Below are positions 6,184 through 46,805 of a DNA stretch of 64,000 bases, in pieces; within the stretch, counting starts at the first letter, position 1, and each line of letters begins with the position of its first letter. The position numbers and the translations under genes were made by a program. The notes under the pieces were generated by a model. It did not search any database, was not told where the DNA came from, and saw only the letters and a list, made by a program, of their open reading frames with translations. Source of the stretch: Thermoflexus hugenholtzii (GTDB lineage Bacteria > Chloroflexota > Anaerolineae > Thermoflexales > Thermoflexaceae); assembly GCF_018771565.1 (NCBI RefSeq), contig NZ_CP076326.1, positions 2,356,001 to 2,420,000 of the forward strand. Reading direction: 5' to 3'.

Positions 6184-6801
6184 TCAACAGGGGATGCCCG
6201 TTCGACGCCAGTTTCCACACCCGCAGATATTTCCCCACCAGCAGTTGTTCCCGCTACAGCACCACTGACGAAGAAGATCCCCGATCCACAGCACCTGCCC
6301 ACCGCTGGGATCCGGGCGGCATTCTGAGCATGCGTTGCTCTGGTAGACTGCGCAATCGCAAACCGCAGTGGGTTGGGGGGGCATTGTAGAGGCATGGGCC
6401 TTGGATTTGGATGGAAGCCGGAAGGGTGAAACCAGGAAGGCAACCAGGATCCCACTCCCGAGCTTCCGGAGCATCTCCCGCCGTCCCCAATCCACGTCCA
6501 GCACTGGTCCACCGAAGCGGGCCACGGCCTGGGCCACCCGCCACGCCCGCGCCGGGCCCAGGACCTGCACCAGGCGCCAGCGCATCGCCAGACCCGTGAA
6601 GACCCGTATCTGCTCCCCTTCGATCTCCAGGAGCATCGGCTCCCAGCGCCAGTTGGGGTGAGCCTGGTTCAGCAGGGCCTGGACCTCGGGCTCCCGTAGC
6701 GATCGCACCCCCAGCCGCCCGCCGCTCAAGGCCTCCACCTCCCGGGCCAGGGCGGTGCACACCGCACACCCGCTGTCAAAGAGAAGATATCGTTCGGTCA
6801 T
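6184..6801 (-). CDS. DCC-type thiol oxidoreductase leader fused to a Cys-rich domain (locus A)
   Basis: A 205-residue protein. Residues 1-95 match the DCC/DUF393 family: LLFDSGCAVC gives the CxxC pair at 12/15, followed by GGRLGVRSLREPEVQALL, WRWEPMLLEIEGE and LGPARAWRVAQAV. A twin-arginine-like segment follows (DWGRREMLRKL near 101-111) with a hydrophobic stretch. The tail of about 80 residues is Cys-rich (CDC, CSEC, WCCSGNNCWWGNICGCG). This is the only copy in the window with an undamaged leader; related leaders occur at 36865-46019. SD AGGGAGG precedes ATG 6801. Predicted orientation: leader in the cytoplasm, Cys-rich tail outside. It is followed by a dedicated-looking ABC exporter. Function unknown. 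Confidence 0.75.
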   Translation of the reverse strand: MTERYLLFDSGCAVCTALAREVEALSGGRLGVRSLREPEVQALLNQAHPNWRWEPMLLEIEGEQIRVFTGLAMRWRLVQVLGPARAWRVAQAVARFGGPVLDVDWGRREMLRKLGSGILVAFLVSPFRLPSKSKAHASTMPPQPTAVCDCAVYQSNACSECRPDPSGGQVLWIGDLLRQWCCSGNNCWWGNICGCGNWRRTGIPC

Positions 6802-37871: not shown

Positions 37872-38684
37872 TTACCGCGGATACAAATACAAAGCTCCAT
37901 TTTGGTCATCGGCCTCTAAACTTCGAAACCATGTAGTTCCTCGAAAGATTTGACCACACATTGTGGCATCCGTGGCATTTCCAGGGCAGTAAATGGACTG
38001 GGTATCACGCAAGCCCAGTGCGTGACCGAACTCATGGGTGATCACTGACCAGGCATCATATTGGTTGCTTGCAGGAGTTCCCGTTCCTGTATACCAGTTT
38101 TCATTTTTATCATATCGAATCCAGAACGATTGGATCGTGTATCCGTATCCCGAGAGGACTGTGACTGCGAGAACATTTCCTGGCCCATCCCACCCTCCCC
38201 ACTCGATGGAATTGGGTGATCCGCTATATTTGATATAGCGCCAGCTCGTGGTGGGGACGCTGCTCCAAGCCGATGCGCCACGATCAGTGGGATCCCAGAA
38301 GGCCATTGGAAGGTAGCCATAGCGATACGTGGCGTAATTCGTGGACCACTTGCAACACACCGAATATGCGAATGCGTTATGGAAAAAGAGCAACATAGTG
38401 AGGAGGATCAGAAAGCTAAGAAGGAGAGGTTGCATACGTGACGGGCTCGCTATCTGAGCGCCACAGGTCACCGCCTGGGCCACCCGCAGGGCCCGCGCCG
38501 GGCCCAGGATCTGGAGCAATCGCATCCGCATCGCCAGCCCCGCCAAGACCCGCACCCGCTCCCCCTCGACCTCAACGAGCATCGGCCCCCACCGCCAGTT
38601 GGGATGAGCCTGGTTCCGCATCGCCTGGACCCCGGGCTCCCGTAGCGACCGCACCCCCAGCCGCCCGCCGCTGAGGGTTTCCAC
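37872..38684 (-). CDS. Matrixin-type metalloprotease in frame behind a damaged DCC leader (locus C)
   Basis: A 270-codon frame. Residues 1-80 are DCC leader (GGRLGVRSLREPGVQAM, LGPARALRVAQAV) without the CxxC. From ATG 38435 there is an independent secretion signal (MQPLLLSFLILLTMLLFFHN, then AFA) and a metzincin: THEFGHALGLRD supplies two His and an Asp as third zinc ligand, as in snapalysins, and TMCGQI may be the Met-turn. The mature protease probably starts at 38435, though no good ribosome site is there; the leader may be translated or vestigial. The cargo is much AT-richer (25 of 60 G/C at 38101-38160) than the leader (43 of 60 at 38581-38640). Confidence 0.65.
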   Translation of the reverse strand: METLSGGRLGVRSLREPGVQAMRNQAHPNWRWGPMLVEVEGERVRVLAGLAMRMRLLQILGPARALRVAQAVTCGAQIASPSRMQPLLLSFLILLTMLLFFHNAFAYSVCCKWSTNYATYRYGYLPMAFWDPTDRGASAWSSVPTTSWRYIKYSGSPNSIEWGGWDGPGNVLAVTVLSGYGYTIQSFWIRYDKNENWYTGTGTPASNQYDAWSVITHEFGHALGLRDTQSIYCPGNATDATMCGQIFRGTTWFRSLEADDQNGALYLYPR

Positions 38685-38747
38685 CTCCCGCGCCAGGGCG
38701 GCGCATATGGAACGTCCCGCATCCTACAGCAGCCATCGTTCGGTCCT
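38685..38747 (-). pseudogene. Broken N-terminus of the DCC leader at locus C
   Basis: Same frame as the downstream CDS. Aligned to locus A the start codon ATG is AGG (38747-38745), the Phe of LLFD is a TAG stop (38726-38724), and the first Cys of CxxC is Arg. Locus D has exactly the same three defects. Confidence 0.75.
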
Positions 38748-40926: not shown

Positions 40927-41292
40927 TTATGGGGCGGTTTTTGTGGGACATGGTATAGAATAATCAAATCGATAAATAGGTGTCGTGCCTCCAGTAACTA
41001 TTTGCCCGCAGTATAGAGAAACACGAGTTCCTCCCGTCCTTTCCATGTGCGTGTGAGGGTCTGTATAGCAGCAACCGGACGAGCAACCACAAGGAGCACA
41101 ACATGATCCTTGAGATGTTTGACCGAGGAGTAACGGGCCACTCACGACATGCCATCCATCGGGAGCCTCTTTAGATTTATCCGGATCATTGTAAGGAATA
41201 TAATCCACATACCCAAACCAAACAGAACCCACATAACAACCTTCAGAAGACCTTCTCCGGAAAGATCGGCTCCTCGGGCCGATCCGGCGCAT
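40927..41292 (-). CDS. Cys-rich secreted-type domain, probably frameshifted cargo of locus D
   Basis: A frame of 121 codons; only the part after about residue 18 looks like protein (CYVGSVWFGYVDYIPYN, then CCAPCGCSSGCCYTDPHTH and TRVSLYCGQ). The first residues are a frame-shifted reading of the end of the preceding CDS (41243-41929), and no good start or ribosome site is seen. A frameshift that cut the Cys-rich end off that protein is the simplest explanation. Cys-rich tails follow the leaders at loci A and F as well. The alternative is a short gene with a non-canonical start. Confidence 0.45.
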   Translation of the reverse strand: MRRIGPRSRSFRRRSSEGCYVGSVWFGYVDYIPYNDPDKSKEAPDGWHVVSGPLLLGQTSQGSCCAPCGCSSGCCYTDPHTHMERTGGTRVSLYCGQIVTGGTTPIYRFDYSIPCPTKTAP

Positions 41293-41929
41293 ACACCGGC
41301 CACACCGGATAGGGGGACGGATACATCGGCTGGGCGATCACCCGGAGCCGCGGCACCCCCTCCCCATCCCCAAAGTTCAAGGACACCGAAAACACCTCCC
41401 CCGAACGCGCAAATCGGGTGACGGCCACGCCCTGCCACACGATCCCCGGCGGCAGCCGGGAGGGCCCATACAAGGGGAACCGGATGAGGGAACGCAACGG
41501 CGCCAGTTCCGTAAATGTGAGGGTCTCCCCGCGCAGGGCCTCGGCCTCCGGGCGGCCATCGGTCTGGCACAGAATCGGGGTGGGAACCTGGCGAACAAAG
41601 GGAGGAATCGGGGCGCCTTCCGGAAGCAGCACGAAGCCCTCCCAGAGCTCGCCCGCTCCGGTGGCGGGCGGGGTGGGCGGGTCCTTCTCGGGCCTGGCCA
41701 TTGGGGAGCCTCCGGGGAGGCGACGGAGGAGGGCCAGGGCAGCCAGGGCGCCGCCCTGCTGCAGCAACCGCCGCCTCCCCCAATCCACGCCGAGCACCGG
41801 GCCTCCCATCCGGGTCACCGCCTGGGCCACCCGCAAGGCCCGCGCCGGGCCCAGGATCTGCACCAGGCGCGCCCGCATCGCCAGCCCCGCCAAGACCCGC
41901 ACCCGCTCCCCCTCGACCTCCAGGAGCAT
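41243..41929 (-). CDS. DCC-leader protein with secreted beta domain (locus D)
   Basis: A 228-codon frame starting at the ATG of the leader motif EPMLLEVEGERVRV. It includes LGPARALRVAQAVTRMGG and the twin-arginine-like GVDWGRRRLLQQGGALAALA, which is a good candidate Tat or anchor segment. The cargo of about 150 residues is beta-rich with few Cys (VLLPEGAPIPPF, GIVWQGVAVTRFARSGEVFS) and not recognised. It ends at PEEPIFPEKVF, exactly where a Cys-rich frame takes over in another phase. The leader upstream of 41929 contains two in-frame stops. Confidence 0.55.
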   Translation of the reverse strand: MLLEVEGERVRVLAGLAMRARLVQILGPARALRVAQAVTRMGGPVLGVDWGRRRLLQQGGALAALALLRRLPGGSPMARPEKDPPTPPATGAGELWEGFVLLPEGAPIPPFVRQVPTPILCQTDGRPEAEALRGETLTFTELAPLRSLIRFPLYGPSRLPPGIVWQGVAVTRFARSGEVFSVSLNFGDGEGVPRLRVIAQPMYPSPYPVWPVYAPDRPEEPIFPEKVF

Positions 41930-42094
41930 CGGCTCTTAGCGCCAGCCGGGGCGGGCGCGGTCCAGCAGGGCCCGGACCTCGGGCTCCCGTAGCGATCGCA
42001 CCCCCAGCCGCCCGCCGCTCCAGGCCTTCACCTTCCGGACCAGAGCGGCGCATATGGAACGTCCCGCATCCTACAGCAGCCATTGTTCGGTCCT
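41930..42094 (-). pseudogene. Broken N-terminus of the DCC leader at locus D
   Basis: In frame with the CDS at 41243-41929. Start codon lost (AGG at 42094-42092), TAG stop at 42073-42071, CxxC reduced to one Cys, and a TAA stop at 41938-41936 in place of the Trp before EPM. GGRLGVRSLREPEVRALLD is still readable between. Confidence 0.75.
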
Positions 42095-42313
42095 CGCTTC
42101 CCCTCCGCTCGGATCAGCCTTCGGTTTTCATTCGATCCAGCCGGCAGGAGCCGTGGTCCTCCAAAAAGGAGGACACAGAGTGACCATCCGGGTTCCCGGC
42201 CACCCGGGGCCGGGAACCCGGCGACCTCCCTCTCCGCCTTTCCGCCCGCCATCCGCACAACGCCGCCATTCGGGTAGGCTCAGCGCAGGGACCAGAGGCG
42301 CACGGTTCCATCC
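42045..42313. repeat. 269-bp duplication, copy 2
   Basis: Matches 38698-38966. It carries an orphan end of the WD40 gene (GTVRLWSLR and stop, near 42287-42313) although no WD40 gene precedes it here, so this copy is the derived one. The hairpins are at 42156-42174 and 42188-42221. The following 200 bp (42314-42510) contain no recognisable gene. Confidence 0.9.
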
Positions 42314-42510
42314 CGACCTTCCCGACCTTCGGAAAGAAGTTCGGACACCCGCCCAAATGGGGCTAGGTCAACCCCGAATTGAAGCCCCGCGAGCGGCTTG
42401 AAGTCACTATCGGAAGCCAGCTGAGGCAGGCTGTAACGGGTCCCAATAATCGCGGTGTCCGAACTGCATTCCGAATCTCAGGCATCAAGGCAAATTCCTT
42501 AAGGCCTCTT

Positions 42511-43089
42511 TCAGCGTGAAGCGGCCTTTATCCGTTCTCGGATATCCGTTATGTCCATACCGACCCACGTTGAGAACCCATAAGCCCCTGTTGCAATCAC
42601 CTGCCCTCGATCATTCAGTGCCAGGATCCCCTGGGAGTGCCCCACGACGGCCCATATCCCCGGCTTCGCCGATGCGGTCAGGAACAAGAGATATTCCCCC
42701 GGGGGCAAGGGTCCTGAGAAACCTCCCTCCTCCTCTGCGATCCGAAAGCCCTGAGCCCGTGCTTCCGGTGTCACGCTCAAGCGAAGGATCCGCAAGTGAG
42801 GGATCGGGGTAGGGCCTTTCAGGACCTCAAGCACTTGAACGGTCTGGACGAGCGAAACCAGCCGTCCGTCCGAGGAATACGCGATCGGTTCCGGAGATCC
42901 AAGAGGGCGAGCCCGAACGATCCACTCCGCTTCACGTATCATGGTCTGTTCATCCGGAGCGTAGTCTATATCCAAAACAACCCACCCCCGCAGGTCATGG
43001 GGAGGCGCTCCACGGGTCAATCGATCCCTTGCGCTAATCGCGAGGGCCAGCAAAATTGCAATCCCCATTCCAATAACTCGAAATCGCAT
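42511..43089 (-). CDS. Secreted partner of a matrixin protease (pair 2)
   Basis: A 192-residue protein with an N-terminal hydrophobic signal (FRVIGMGIAILLALAIS). Motifs AEWIVRARP, LVQTVQVLEVLKGP, HLRILRLSV, PPGEYLLFLTAS and the C-terminal ITDIRERIKA match, in order, those of the protein at 37112-37771. It follows the matrixin gene at 43103-43870 by 13 bp, as that one follows another matrixin gene. ATG 43089 follows GGAGGTTGAC. A chaperone, inhibitor or adhesion role would fit but nothing shows it. Confidence 0.75.
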   Translation of the reverse strand: MRFRVIGMGIAILLALAISARDRLTRGAPPHDLRGWVVLDIDYAPDEQTMIREAEWIVRARPLGSPEPIAYSSDGRLVSLVQTVQVLEVLKGPTPIPHLRILRLSVTPEARAQGFRIAEEEGGFSGPLPPGEYLLFLTASAKPGIWAVVGHSQGILALNDRGQVIATGAYGFSTWVGMDITDIRERIKAASR

Positions 43090-43102
43090 GTCAACCTCCG
43101 TC

Positions 43103-43870
43103 TCAATACCTATTGTTGATATCTTGATAATCGTGACTTTGTAAATTGGTGATTAGCCAATTGTGGCAGCGCTGTCCGTGATCAGCATAAAGGATGCTAT
43201 AGAGAGAATTGTGAGCGAACCCGGCTCCGTGACCGAGTTCGTGAATCGCGGTGCATATTTTCTGGTCAACTGTATGAGGAATTACATTAAAATGAGGAAA
43301 ATTGAAGTAAAAAGATCCGGCTTGTATGATATGGGTGGTGCGATTAACATAAATCGATGTAGCGCCCGCGACATTTATGTCAGGGTAATTAAGGTCACCC
43401 CATAGCATTAATGCGGAAGTTCGTTGAGCCCAATAGTAGTCAAAATCTGAAGCATTGAAATTCCTCGCTGCTTGCTGTATGGCAATCTGATAGGAAGAAT
43501 CCCATGAAGTAGGCCACCAGTGACTGGTGGAGGTTCCATACCACCGAACAGGAATCCCATCACCACAAATATTCCAGTCATGAGCCGCAGCTTTGAGAGT
43601 ATTAAAAACAAAACTTAACAAGAAAATGTAAAACAAGTAAAACAAAAATTGCAATCGTCCACTGTTACTCTTAGAGATAAAGCTCCCGAAGCGAGCCACG
43701 GCCTGGGCCACCCGTAGCGCCCGCAGCGAAAGGCCCGCCAAGACCCGCACCCGCTCCCCTTCGATCTCGACAAGCATCGGCTCCCAGCGCCAGCCGGGAC
43801 GGGCACGGTCCAGCAGGGCCTGGACCTCGGGGTCCCGCAAACTTCGCACCCCCAGCCGCCCGCCGCCCAA
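43103..43870 (-). CDS. Matrixin-type metalloprotease in frame behind a truncated DCC leader (locus E)
   Basis: The frame begins inside the leader (GGGRLGVRSLRDPEVQALL, WRWEPMLVEIEGERVRV), which also lacks about 11 residues between VLAGL and ALRVAQAV. A very hydrophobic segment (LQFLFYLFYIFLLSFVFNTL) acts as signal; a TTG at 43654 could be the true start. The cargo is a metzincin with AIHELGHGAGFAH, the complete HExxHxxGxxH zinc site. Cargo DNA is AT-rich (20 of 60 G/C at 43261-43320) against 42 of 60 in the leader at 43741-43800, so the two parts have different histories. Confidence 0.65.
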   Translation of the reverse strand: MGGGRLGVRSLRDPEVQALLDRARPGWRWEPMLVEIEGERVRVLAGLSLRALRVAQAVARFGSFISKSNSGRLQFLFYLFYIFLLSFVFNTLKAAAHDWNICGDGIPVRWYGTSTSHWWPTSWDSSYQIAIQQAARNFNASDFDYYWAQRTSALMLWGDLNYPDINVAGATSIYVNRTTHIIQAGSFYFNFPHFNVIPHTVDQKICTAIHELGHGAGFAHNSLYSILYADHGQRCHNWLITNLQSHDYQDINNRY

Positions 43871-43894
43871 ACGGCGAAAGCCCCCCGTTCCCCC

Positions 43895-44575
43895 TCACGG
43901 ATAAACCCACCAGATCAACCAGTGACCCTGCCGCCGGATCAGGAAGAAATGGGCATTCAGGGCAGGGGCCGCCTGGAGCGCCTCCGCACACGGCCCTGCG
44001 CATACTACCACCCACCATGAACGGGCCAGCACCTCCCGCCCGCACATATTGGCGATCAATTCCCCATACGGAGATTCACCCGCCGGCCGGGGATCGGTCA
44101 CCCGTTCCGAGGGGATCCGTGCCTCCGCCGGCAGGGCAGGCGTGGCCGGGGTCGCCAGCCGGGCCCAGTCGATCTGTGCCCAATGGGAGGGATCGTAGGC
44201 CTGCCGCACCGTCTCCGGGTCGCCGGAGGTGGCAGCCCGGAGCACGGCCAGGGCTTCCTCCTTGGAGAGAGGGGTGGTTTCCAGGCCCTGGGGATTGGGG
44301 CATCCCTGGACGCCGGGGACGATCACCCCAGGCCGCAGGGGGAGGGGAGAGGGATAGATCTCGGGGGGCAAGGTCGGCCCGGGGGTGGGAGCGGACGTAG
44401 GGAAAGGGGAGGGCGAAGGCGAAGCGGACGGGATAGGTGTGGGGAGCGGGGAAGGCGAAAGGGACCCCAGAGAGGAGGGGGTCGGGTGGGCTCCCCCGCA
44501 TCCCGCGCCGAGGATCGCCAGGCCAATGGCCCACGCCCGCATCATCCCTCGAAGTCGATGAACCCCTCCGATCAT
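43895..44575 (-). CDS. Lipoprotein of unknown function
   Basis: A protein of about 226 residues with signal sequence ending in lipobox ILGAGC, followed by a 50-residue Ser/Pro linker. The globular part includes VQGCPNPQGLETTPLSKEEAL, GDPETVRQAYDPSHWAQIDW, CGREVLARSWWVVVCAGPC and ends with GHWLIWWVYP. The final part resembles the NTF2-like or DUF4878-like pattern of small secreted domains, but no family is assigned. Start 44575 chosen for GGAGGGGACG just upstream; 44545 is also possible. It lies between loci E and F. Confidence 0.7.
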   Translation of the reverse strand: MIGGVHRLRGMMRAWAIGLAILGAGCGGAHPTPSSLGSLSPSPLPTPIPSASPSPSPFPTSAPTPGPTLPPEIYPSPLPLRPGVIVPGVQGCPNPQGLETTPLSKEEALAVLRAATSGDPETVRQAYDPSHWAQIDWARLATPATPALPAEARIPSERVTDPRPAGESPYGELIANMCGREVLARSWWVVVCAGPCAEALQAAPALNAHFFLIRRQGHWLIWWVYP

Positions 44576-44597
44576 CGTCCCCTCCATTCTTACGATC

Positions 44598-45854
44598 TCA
44601 CGATGGGCATTGCGCCAGCACCCGCACCTCGCAGGAGAAGCACCCTCGCCGAACAGGATCGTAGAAGTAGGCGAAGGTGGGCTTGGTCAGATCAATGATG
44701 GCCGCTCGACCTCCCCGGCAGTCTGCGCAGGACCGATTACACAGATCCGTGTCCGGATGATTGGGAACACAATCTGGAATACAATTGGCGCGCTGGCAAG
44801 GTCCACAGCTGGCAATATAGACGGTCCTCACCTTGGTGCTGCATTGGTCATAGACCACCACATCCTTGCCGCAAGCGAGGTAAATCTGGTTTTTACAGTT
44901 CCGAGAGCAATCGCAGCAGTTCCAGGTGCAACAGCCACAGGTATCCATCGCAGGCCAGGCGGCCTGATCACTGCGAGCGAGGTTGCATGTCCCACAGCGG
45001 CCTGCGCCGGTCGGGCAATCAAACCAGCCCGCATACCCCGTGTAGATATACCAGCACAAGCCATTCGGGCCGACCTCGATACGATCCGCCGCAGGTGGGG
45101 AATCGGCGGGGGAAGAGAGCCTCTCGACTTGACGGGCTGAATGCACCCAGATACGAGTGCCCCGGATCCCCTCCGGGATCCGCTCTCCAATGACATCCAC
45201 GAAATCCCCTTCCTCCAGTCGAAGGGGAGATGCATCCCGCGGGCGTTCAGTAAGCCAATCGGCCACCGACACCTCTTCCCCAGGTTCTAACCGGAGAGTC
45301 CTCGGTGCGTTGTACAGACCGCCCGTCCGCAGCTCATAGCCTCCCGGAATCACTCGCGTCACCACCCCCTGCACCCGAGTCAAATTGGCCCATAGCCGGA
45401 GGGCCGTTCCTGAAGGAACGTGGAGACGGATCATCAGCTCGTCTCCCCTTGTGAGGGTGGAAAGGGGACGCTCGCCGCCTTTCCAAACCGATATCCCGTT
45501 GGGGATGCGGATCTTACGCAGACCAGTAGGGGTCTCGATCTCTACCTCATCGTCAGTGAACGCACGAAGGGAACCCGCCAGGACTTCGATCTCCCCCAGG
45601 GATGACGGAGAGGGATGGAGGGGGGAGATAACAGAGCGGAGACGTGGTCCGATCGCGAAGGCACCGAAAGCGCCCAGGGCCCGTCCGAGGAACCGCCGCC
45701 TTCCCCAATCCACGCCCAGCACAGGGCCTCCCATCCGGGCCACCGCCTGGGCCACCCGCAAGGCCCGCGCCGGGCCCAGGATCTGGAGCAACCGCATCCG
45801 CATCGCCAGGCCCGCGAAGACCCGCACTTGCTCCCCATCGATTTCGACGAGCAT
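44598..45854 (-). CDS. DCC-leader protein with Cys-rich double-psi-barrel-like domain (locus F)
   Basis: A 418-codon frame beginning at the leader ATG in EPMLVEIDGEQ. The twin-arginine segment GVDWGRRRFLGRALGAFGAF is the best Tat-like motif of the family. Then comes a beta-rich region of about 180 residues (VEIETPTGLRKIRIPNG, ELMIRLHVPSG, GDFVDVIGERIPEG). The C-terminal 150 residues have some 25 Cys (CGCCTWNCCDCSRNC) in a pattern like the RlpA/expansin double-psi barrel: LACGKDVVVYD, VYIASCGPC and AAIIDLTKPTFAYFYDP. The leader upstream is intact except for one TAG. Possibly expressed by reinitiation at 45854. Confidence 0.65.
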   Translation of the reverse strand: MLVEIDGEQVRVFAGLAMRMRLLQILGPARALRVAQAVARMGGPVLGVDWGRRRFLGRALGAFGAFAIGPRLRSVISPLHPSPSSLGEIEVLAGSLRAFTDDEVEIETPTGLRKIRIPNGISVWKGGERPLSTLTRGDELMIRLHVPSGTALRLWANLTRVQGVVTRVIPGGYELRTGGLYNAPRTLRLEPGEEVSVADWLTERPRDASPLRLEEGDFVDVIGERIPEGIRGTRIWVHSARQVERLSSPADSPPAADRIEVGPNGLCWYIYTGYAGWFDCPTGAGRCGTCNLARSDQAAWPAMDTCGCCTWNCCDCSRNCKNQIYLACGKDVVVYDQCSTKVRTVYIASCGPCQRANCIPDCVPNHPDTDLCNRSCADCRGGRAAIIDLTKPTFAYFYDPVRRGCFSCEVRVLAQCPS

Positions 45855-45863
45855 CGGCTCCCA

Positions 45864-46019
45864 CTACCAGCCGGGGCGGGCCCGGTTCAGCAGGACCTGG
45901 ATCTCGGGATCCCGCAAATTCCGCACCCCCAGCCGCCCGCCGCTGAGGGCCTCCACCTCCCGCGCCAGGGCGGCACATACGGAACACCCACCGTCAAAGA
46001 GAAGATACCGCTCGCTCAT
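45864..46019 (-). pseudogene. N-terminal DCC module of locus F, ended by an in-frame TAG
   Basis: In frame with the CDS at 44598-45854. It starts MSERYLLFDGGCSVCAALAR with an intact CxxC (12/15) and ribosome site, and reads on to RARPGW, then TAG at 45866-45864 in place of the Arg codon of GWRWEPM. The next in-frame ATG is only 9 nt beyond. It could be a decaying gene, a sequencing difference, or a short ORF translationally coupled to the next. Confidence 0.65.
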
Positions 46020-46066: not shown

Positions 46067-46118
46067 TTCCTCATTTTTGGAGGAAAGAGCGGCCTGGCCT
46101 TCCTCATTTTTGGAGGAA
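46067..46118. repeat. Tandem copies of the conserved hairpin
   Basis: TTCCTCATTTTTGGAGGAA occurs at 46067-46085 and again at 46100-46118, 33 bp apart; a third copy is upstream of locus A (6862-6880). The second copy contains the stop codon of the LuxR-type gene. The stem includes a GGAGG on one strand. Confidence 0.85.
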
Positions 46119-46805
46119 CCCCGCCTCGAGGCGATCCTCCCCGAGCCAGGGGGGGTCTTCGAGGTCCAGGAGGGGGGCGATGTAGGGATCATCAAGGCAG
46201 CCGCTGCGGACCCACTGGCGGAGGGCGACGCGGTCGGGGAGCCCCAGGCGGTGCAGGAGCCAGCGGAGGTGGGTGCGGATGGAGGTGGGGCGCCGGCGGA
46301 GGGCCTGGGCGATCTCCTTGTCGCTCCAGCCACGGGCGACCCCCAGGGCCACGGCCCGCTGGCGGGGGGAGAGGGCCGCCCAGGGCTCCCCGAAGCGAAC
46401 CCACCAGGCCTGGGCCCGGCGCCGGTCGGCGGGGTGCCAGGAGAGGGTGCCCTGGAGGGCGGCACGGAGGCGAACGCGGAGGAGAGGGAGGGGCAGGGTG
46501 GTGAAGAGGACGGCGCAGGCGCCGGCCTTCCAGGCGAGAGCGAGGCCGGCCGGATAGGGATCCGCGAGGAGGAGGAAGCCGTCGAGGGCGATCCCCTCCT
46601 GGCGGAGGGCGTGGAGGAGGCGCGGGCCGGAGCCATCGGGGAGGGCGAAGTCGATGAGGAGAACGGCGGGGGGCTGGCGGCGGACGCGGCCAAGGGCCTC
46701 CGCCACGGTGGGGGCGATCCAGGCCACGGGGAAGCCCTCCGCTTCAGCCAGGGCCTGGAGGCCGAGGGCCCGGAGGGGGCATCCGCTCACCACGCCGATC
46801 GCCAT
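46104..46805 (-). CDS. LuxR-family response-regulator-like transcription factor
   Basis: A 233-residue protein. Residues 1-115 form a degenerate receiver domain: LLIDFALPDGSG has the acceptor-type Asp near 51, but the usual DD pair near the N-terminus is absent (GVVSGCPLRALG), so phosphorylation is doubtful. The C-terminal helix-turn-helix is LSPRQRAVALGVARGWSDKE then IAQALRRRPTSIRTHLRWLL. No histidine kinase is adjacent. It is the first gene of the co-directional accessory block and may control locus F or more of the block (inference). ATG 46805 follows GGAGGGAACG. Confidence 0.85.
   Translation of the reverse strand: MAIGVVSGCPLRALGLQALAEAEGFPVAWIAPTVAEALGRVRRQPPAVLLIDFALPDGSGPRLLHALRQEGIALDGFLLLADPYPAGLALAWKAGACAVLFTTLPLPLLRVRLRAALQGTLSWHPADRRRAQAWWVRFGEPWAALSPRQRAVALGVARGWSDKEIAQALRRRPTSIRTHLRWLLHRLGLPDRVALRQWVRSGCLDDPYIAPLLDLEDPPWLGEDRLEAGFLQK

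Follow-up and report, generated by a model that had tools for sequence, protein, structure and literature searches.

Halocin C8-like bacteriocins are Cys-rich and are exported through the twin-arginine translocation (Tat) pathway. Other described systems that come close to the case treated here are the DCC1-like thiol-disulfide oxidoreductase domain (PF04134), translational coupling by termination-reinitiation, and the pseudogenes found in recombining multigene families of bacteria. A distance of −8 to +10 nucleotides (nt) is treated as predictive of termination-reinitiation in a passage of PMC10666635, and a passage of PMC8129789 states TatAC for Thermoflexus hugenholtzii. These systems serve here for comparison with a gene family of this species in which a leader, formed by a thioredoxin-like (DCC1-like) domain and then a Tat-like segment of the form GVDWGRRxFL, is followed by varied cargo. 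We analysed a stretch of 64,000 nt of its genome (contig NZ_CP076326.1, positions 2,356,001 to 2,420,000), which is called the window in what follows, where the leader is interrupted by in-frame stops at two loci, F and D. We think that these stops are very probably loss-of-function changes in the leader of a multicopy recombining family, and not the mark of an evolved two-piece protein.

On the minus strand, locus F reads GGC TGG TAG TGG GAG CCG ATG, with the TAG at 45866-45864 and the ATG at 45854-45852, and locus D reads GGC TGG CGC TAA GAG CCG ATG, with the TAA at 41938-41936 and the ATG at 41929-41927. The bases of both stops, as given in the initial annotation, were confirmed in the sequence. 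The same is true for its observation that a long frame reopens at a Met within 9 nt: it has 418 codons at F (to 44598) and 228 codons at D (to 41243), and the gap between stop and ATG is 9 nt at F and 6 nt at D. The features of the two loci are the following.

45864..46019, minus strand: upstream leader half of F, with ATG and CxxC (CSVC), 51 codons ahead of the TAG of codon 52
45864..45866, minus strand: in-frame TAG of F, codon 52; relatives have CAG or an Arg/His codon
44598..45854, minus strand: downstream frame of F from ATG56, 418 amino acids (aa), with leader C-half, Tat-like segment, spacer and Cys-rich domain
45648..45704, minus strand: Tat-like segment of F, GRRRFLGRALGAFGAFAIG; motif read by eye, TIGR01409 silent
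44601..45059, minus strand: Cys-rich cargo domain of F
41936..42094, minus strand: upstream part of the D leader, with AGG at the start position, TAG at codon 8 (42073-42071), Arg for the first Cys of CxxC, and TAA at codon 53
41936..41938, minus strand: in-frame TAA of D, codon 53; TGG in most copies
41243..41929, minus strand: downstream frame of D from ATG56, 228 aa; cargo1 minus its last ~51 residues
40927..41292, minus strand: cargo2 remnant of D after the truncated cargo1; best match to the cargo2 relative from residue 95 on

The codons around the stops were compared in the 43 Thermoflexus copies that cover this place, within a sample of nine genomes of the genus, the own genome included. 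Three rows with non-homologous alignment at this codon were excluded (L049:1889, L065:2124 and L066:6398), and the copy of genome G023 was left out of the genus flank and haplotype counts. The ATG behind the stops is not particular to the two loci: ATG56, read by eye, is present in 43/43 of these copies, and a usable ATG follows the stops because codon 56 is Met throughout Thermoflexus. In the predicted fold, strand 3 starts with ATG56, and any stop arising just upstream would look as though a start came after it. Outside the genus, residue 56 is Thr in seven of nine copies, Met in one and Val in one, and Trp53 is kept in eight of the nine. A later Met, at codon 96, was compared by eye with the occurrence of broken copies and no association was seen. 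Codon 53 is TGG in 36 of the 43 genus copies, TAA in five, TAG in one and TCG in one, and codon 52 is TAG in F alone and CAG in four. One copy thus has a stop at codon 52 and six have a stop at codon 53, and the arrangement is not conserved.

The two stops had been taken as independent events, which holds for the TAG of F, private to one copy, but not for the TAA of D, which is an allele common to five copies. Three other copies have the CTC-GTC haplotype that lies downstream of the stop in F, and CAG is found at codon 52 in 3/3 of them. The TAG of F is best read as a single C>T step from the CAG allele of its haplotype, a direction of change that we infer from these relatives. TAA53 is present in three species: in D and L013_14855 of the own genome, in L051_3661 and L054_1735 of G001, and in L071_205 of G006. 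Going from TGG to TAA requires two changes. Moreover, CGC52 combined with CTG-GAG at codons 58-59 is found in 5/5 TAA copies versus 5/38 of the others (Fisher p = 0.0003), and the association is kept when the test is restricted to five genomes (p = 0.0015). TAA53 looks like a single old allele, which would have been moved by short-tract recombination or have eroded since, and repeated mutation is a possible origin as well. Independent TAA53 mutations were considered and set aside: flank identity bears no clear sign of common origin, and the local haplotype test favours the one origin that we prefer.

TAA53 is one of several reasons to regard locus D as a probable pseudogene. It carries at least five lesions (AGG at the start, TAG8, C12R, TAA53 and cargo damage), and it can be compared with a relative whose frame is open. 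This relative, L063 of G004, is homologous to D at 84% along a stretch that takes in the 237 nt ahead of codon 53 and continues through cargo1, and it has TGG53 in an open frame of 328 aa. Close to the site of the original start it has a different ATG in frame, and it keeps CxxC and the entire frame (L063:229-1215). The AGG start and TAG8 of D are common to the window copy 38591 and to L072 (G006). Cargo1 of D ends after 228 residues, versus 279 in the relative, and the frame of 121 codons that lies 3' of it matches the cargo2 relative solely from residue 95, the first half being gone; therefore, the loss seems to concern one piece that reached over both ends. The TAA would be an old allele that was probably carried between copies by short-tract recombination, and the gene that bears it would be a pseudogene on other grounds too.

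Broken leaders are the rule in Thermoflexus. The leader was found at 11 places in the own genome, and it has matches in nine of 60 relatives, namely the own genome, seven other Thermoflexus and G023, which belongs to another family of the same class. The 53 Thermoflexus copies were classed from a frameshift-aware alignment, cut at codon 112; frameshifts at codons 118-121 stem from the gaps that the alignment has in the Tat region, and they were disregarded. The leader is intact in 13 copies and partial in 29; of the others, which are full length, seven contain a stop or frameshift and four have a codon other than ATG in the start position (GTG in one of them). A profile search matched 11 of 400 Chloroflexota genomes; nine of these are outside Thermoflexus, and they have one match each, without internal stop, the match and frame of G389 being short. 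The initial annotation had offered decay of the DCC part, with the Tat-like segment and cargo kept, as one of its two explanations. For F and for the family as a whole this fits, but D departs from it in that its cargo is decaying too. The best reading, in our opinion, is that the leader decays while the cargo stays constrained at some loci.

The leaders are also mosaic. Between copy 38591 and L072, the N-half has 0.03 synonymous substitutions per site (dS) and the C-half has 0.51; between F and L069, the corresponding values are 0.29 and 0.03. The leader sites L012_3695 of the own genome (G000) and L051_12546 of G001 show an 85% match over a stretch that starts 600 nt ahead of codon 53; the homology ends near codon 108, and the cargos differ. 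Matching leaders with differing cargos at corresponding sites thus point to the leader as shared DNA behind which cargos exchange. Breakpoint mapping near codon 53 in four asymmetric pairs gave fitted breakpoints that are not clustered at codon 53. Gene conversion confounds every leader value of the nonsynonymous to synonymous ratio (dN/dS). For the N-half of D, this ratio is 0.53 versus L051_3661, 0.77 versus 38591 and 0.61 versus L072, whereas nine pairs in which this segment contains no stop range from 0.0 to 0.50. These values lean towards relaxed constraint on the upstream half of D, with small numbers, few sites and gene conversion to be taken into account.

In the predicted model of the leader, the mean predicted local distance difference test (pLDDT) score is 69.7 and residues 96-149 are under 50. 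Its strands (E) and helices (H) come as E3-8, H13-25, E31-34, H38-47, E56-61 and E64-69, which is the thioredoxin order, and we take Pro55 to be the cis-proline of the thioredoxin-like fold. Weak Foldseek matches to solved structures include thioredoxins and protein disulfide isomerase (PDI) domains, the best E-value overall being 0.012. A weak profile match to PF04134 spans residues 6-100 (E 0.0031). CxxC is present in the aligned intact Thermoflexus copies and is missing in the G023 copy. The TIGR01409 profile exceeds its cut-off in G023 only (17.3 bits), and F was not reported. Both stops would interrupt the predicted fold in the loop that links helix 2 to strand 3. The upstream piece would then retain CxxC and miss the strands that come later, and CxxC would be absent from the downstream piece.

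At F, the TAG at codon 52 is the single lesion and the remaining frames are open. F could have become a pseudogene recently, or it could be a gene that starts at ATG56 or further downstream. Its Cys-rich domain gives a dN/dS of 0.19 against a lone leaderless relative in G002 (dS 1.98, near saturation), which suggests that the F cargo matters without the leader, translation of F itself not being implied. Because this domain is constrained even where the relative has no leader, translation of the F cargo may continue, from ATG56 or from a later start. A reading that goes one step further takes the downstream frame, in F as in other copies that lack the start, as a working gene from ATG56 or later and independent of upstream translation, the stop being neutral and the DCC half a dispensable relic. 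We hold it as a tentative possibility, which is compatible with decay of the leader because it concerns the remainder after decay. Besides the constraint on the Cys-rich domain, it draws on L064 and L070, which keep the same cargo open behind differing leader lesions (dN/dS 0.39), and on L012_3695 and L051_12546, where no ATG of the open frame precedes ATG56. However, no good Shine-Dalgarno (SD) sequence lies before ATG56 in ten copies (best 3-5 nt at spacing 3-5), the divergence measured may largely predate the lesions, and the leaderless F relatives in G002 and G005 are perhaps remnants themselves.

The other explanation of the initial annotation was selection for splitting the protein, with termination at codon 52 or 53 and reinitiation at ATG56 giving the CxxC N-half and the Tat/cargo C-half in fixed proportion. 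The gaps of 6 and 9 nt lie within the range that the passage of PMC10666635 treats as predictive of termination-reinitiation, and the break would come in the loop between the halves of the predicted fold. Stops at these codons are also mildly over-represented: codons 52 and 53 make up 11.9% of the weighted one-step stop-creating changes (41 copies) and hold three of seven separate stop events, with P about 0.04 in a weak, post hoc count made by hand. The events listed are TAG at codon 8, TAG at 52, TAA and TAG at 53, TAG at 79, TGA at 88 and TAG at 105; left out were L060 (degenerate throughout), TAG88 in L013_14855 (outside the homology), TGA53 in L059_5400 (downstream of a frameshift) and the stop within L065. 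However, the family start position is AGG, GCC, ATT or missing in 4/5 TAA copies (in-frame starts lie further upstream as ATG in L054 and as GTGs in D and L071), and D has no start codon for the upstream frame at that position (AGG, with TAG8 after it); F has one. The frames downstream of the stop in the five TAA copies have 230, 281, 62, 61 and 35 codons, so 3/5 are left with just 35-62. The change from TGG to TAA converts GGGAG, the SD-like sequence ahead of ATG56, into AAGAG and does not create a new ribosome site, and ATG56, identical in all genus copies, carries no sign of adaptation. Selected stop-restart coupling is thus a most unlikely explanation overall; adaptive splitting is very unlikely at D and unlikely at F. 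Slightly less probable still is that the stop of F and L051_3661 is advantageous, by freeing a cytoplasmic thioredoxin-like domain from the exported cargo, with the halves being made by reinitiation and perhaps reassembling, and that this uncoupling drove the spread of TAA53 among copies and species. An error of sequencing or assembly at one or both sites, or readthrough of the stop codon, is scarcely to be expected either: the F TAG is private to one copy and the closest leader C-half (G006) has CAG, as an error would have it, but TAA53 is found in five copies from three genomes and TAG8 in three copies from two genomes.

Several observations weigh against loss of function in a shuffled leader. 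F and L051_3661 keep the start, CxxC and both frames, with a single lesion, as a maintained split would. Downstream of the TAA, dN/dS between D and L051_3661 is 0.37 in the leader C-half and 0.27 in the cargo, and from these values below a shared TAA the downstream frame would have been constrained for much of that time. Mean identity over the flanks does not clearly set the TAA copies above random sets (p 0.05 to 0.92), and the flanks of D are closest to TGG copies. As for the domain itself, the thioredoxin E-values from Foldseek are just ~0.01 to 0.1, and PF04134 reaches 17.0-19.4 bits in the four proteins with a reported match, versus a gathering cut-off of 27.8. Loss of function remains the reading that we prefer.

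Four more leader copies or fragments lie in the window.

6184..6801, minus strand: intact leader copy with a short Cys-rich cargo, 205 aa
36858..36992, minus strand: leader tail fragment, codons ~75-119
38466..38744, minus strand: leader copy 38591, AGG in place of the start codon and codon 8 TAG; joined to a protease frame of the matrixin-like type
43709..43866, minus strand: leader fragment ahead of another HExxH protein (frame 43103-43870)

The two HExxH frames resemble secreted proteases (37872-38684, matrixin, E 7e-9; 43103-43870, weak match), and both have hydrophobic stretches like those of the general secretory (Sec) pathway directly after the leader fragments. The G+C fraction falls to 0.567 in window positions 42001-44000. 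In G001, a leader that lacks about codons 39-53 in frame is fused to the second of these protease types, with 278 aa open (L051:15326-16162). LuxR-type (GerE) regulators are found directly upstream of leader genes, at 46104-46805 of the window and at L012:14851-15549. A transposase-like frame, recognised by eye, lies just upstream of the leaderless relative of the F Cys-rich domain (L059:353-1225, G002).

Outside Thermoflexus, a Cys-rich tail is often found at the end of the cargo. The single-match copies L102, L103, L105, L106, L108, L109 and L075 have a thioredoxin-like domain, an internal Tat-like signal, a spacer and often a Cys-rich C-terminal tail; the five Thermoflexus examples with Cys tails were picked for having them. 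Pfam and NCBIfam searches on several cargos gave no matches. Cargo2 (L012:9765-10418, L051:11138-11701), for which the Pfam search was without match, is Cys-rich and has an HxHxE-like motif (HVHLER/HTHMER), and by eye it resembles the end of an M23 peptidase. Membership of the Cys-rich cargos in the halocin C8 family (TIGR04449) was tried and rejected, the best score being 10.9 bits (L075) versus the 24 needed. In the 400 Chloroflexota genomes this profile gave no match at E ≤ 0.01, and the control, Haloferax volcanii, was positive.

What emerges is a Chloroflexota family with a thioredoxin-like domain, a Tat-like segment and often a Cys-rich tail, which is multicopy, mosaic and eroding in Thermoflexus and is represented by a single stop-free match in nine other genomes. 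A description of this arrangement was not noticed in a limited search of the literature, in which that on Thermoflexus was barely covered. The leader is like the DCC1-like domain of PF04134 in its CxxC near the N-terminus, its weak profile match and its thioredoxin-like predicted fold, but its scores stay below the cut-off, it continues into a Tat-like segment and cargo, and the G023 copy is without CxxC. With the halocin C8-like bacteriocins the family has in common a Tat-like export signal and, in several relatives, a Cys-rich C-terminus, although no match exceeds the cut-off of TIGR04449. Termination-reinitiation pairs resemble F and D in having a stop just ahead of an ATG; unlike such pairs, the upstream half is often without a start in place, no matched ribosome site is present and the arrangement is not conserved. 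No defining departure was found from the pseudogenes of recombining multigene families in bacteria. As in these, most copies have stops, start loss, frameshifts or are fragments, lesions are common to several copies, and the haplotypes are mosaic.

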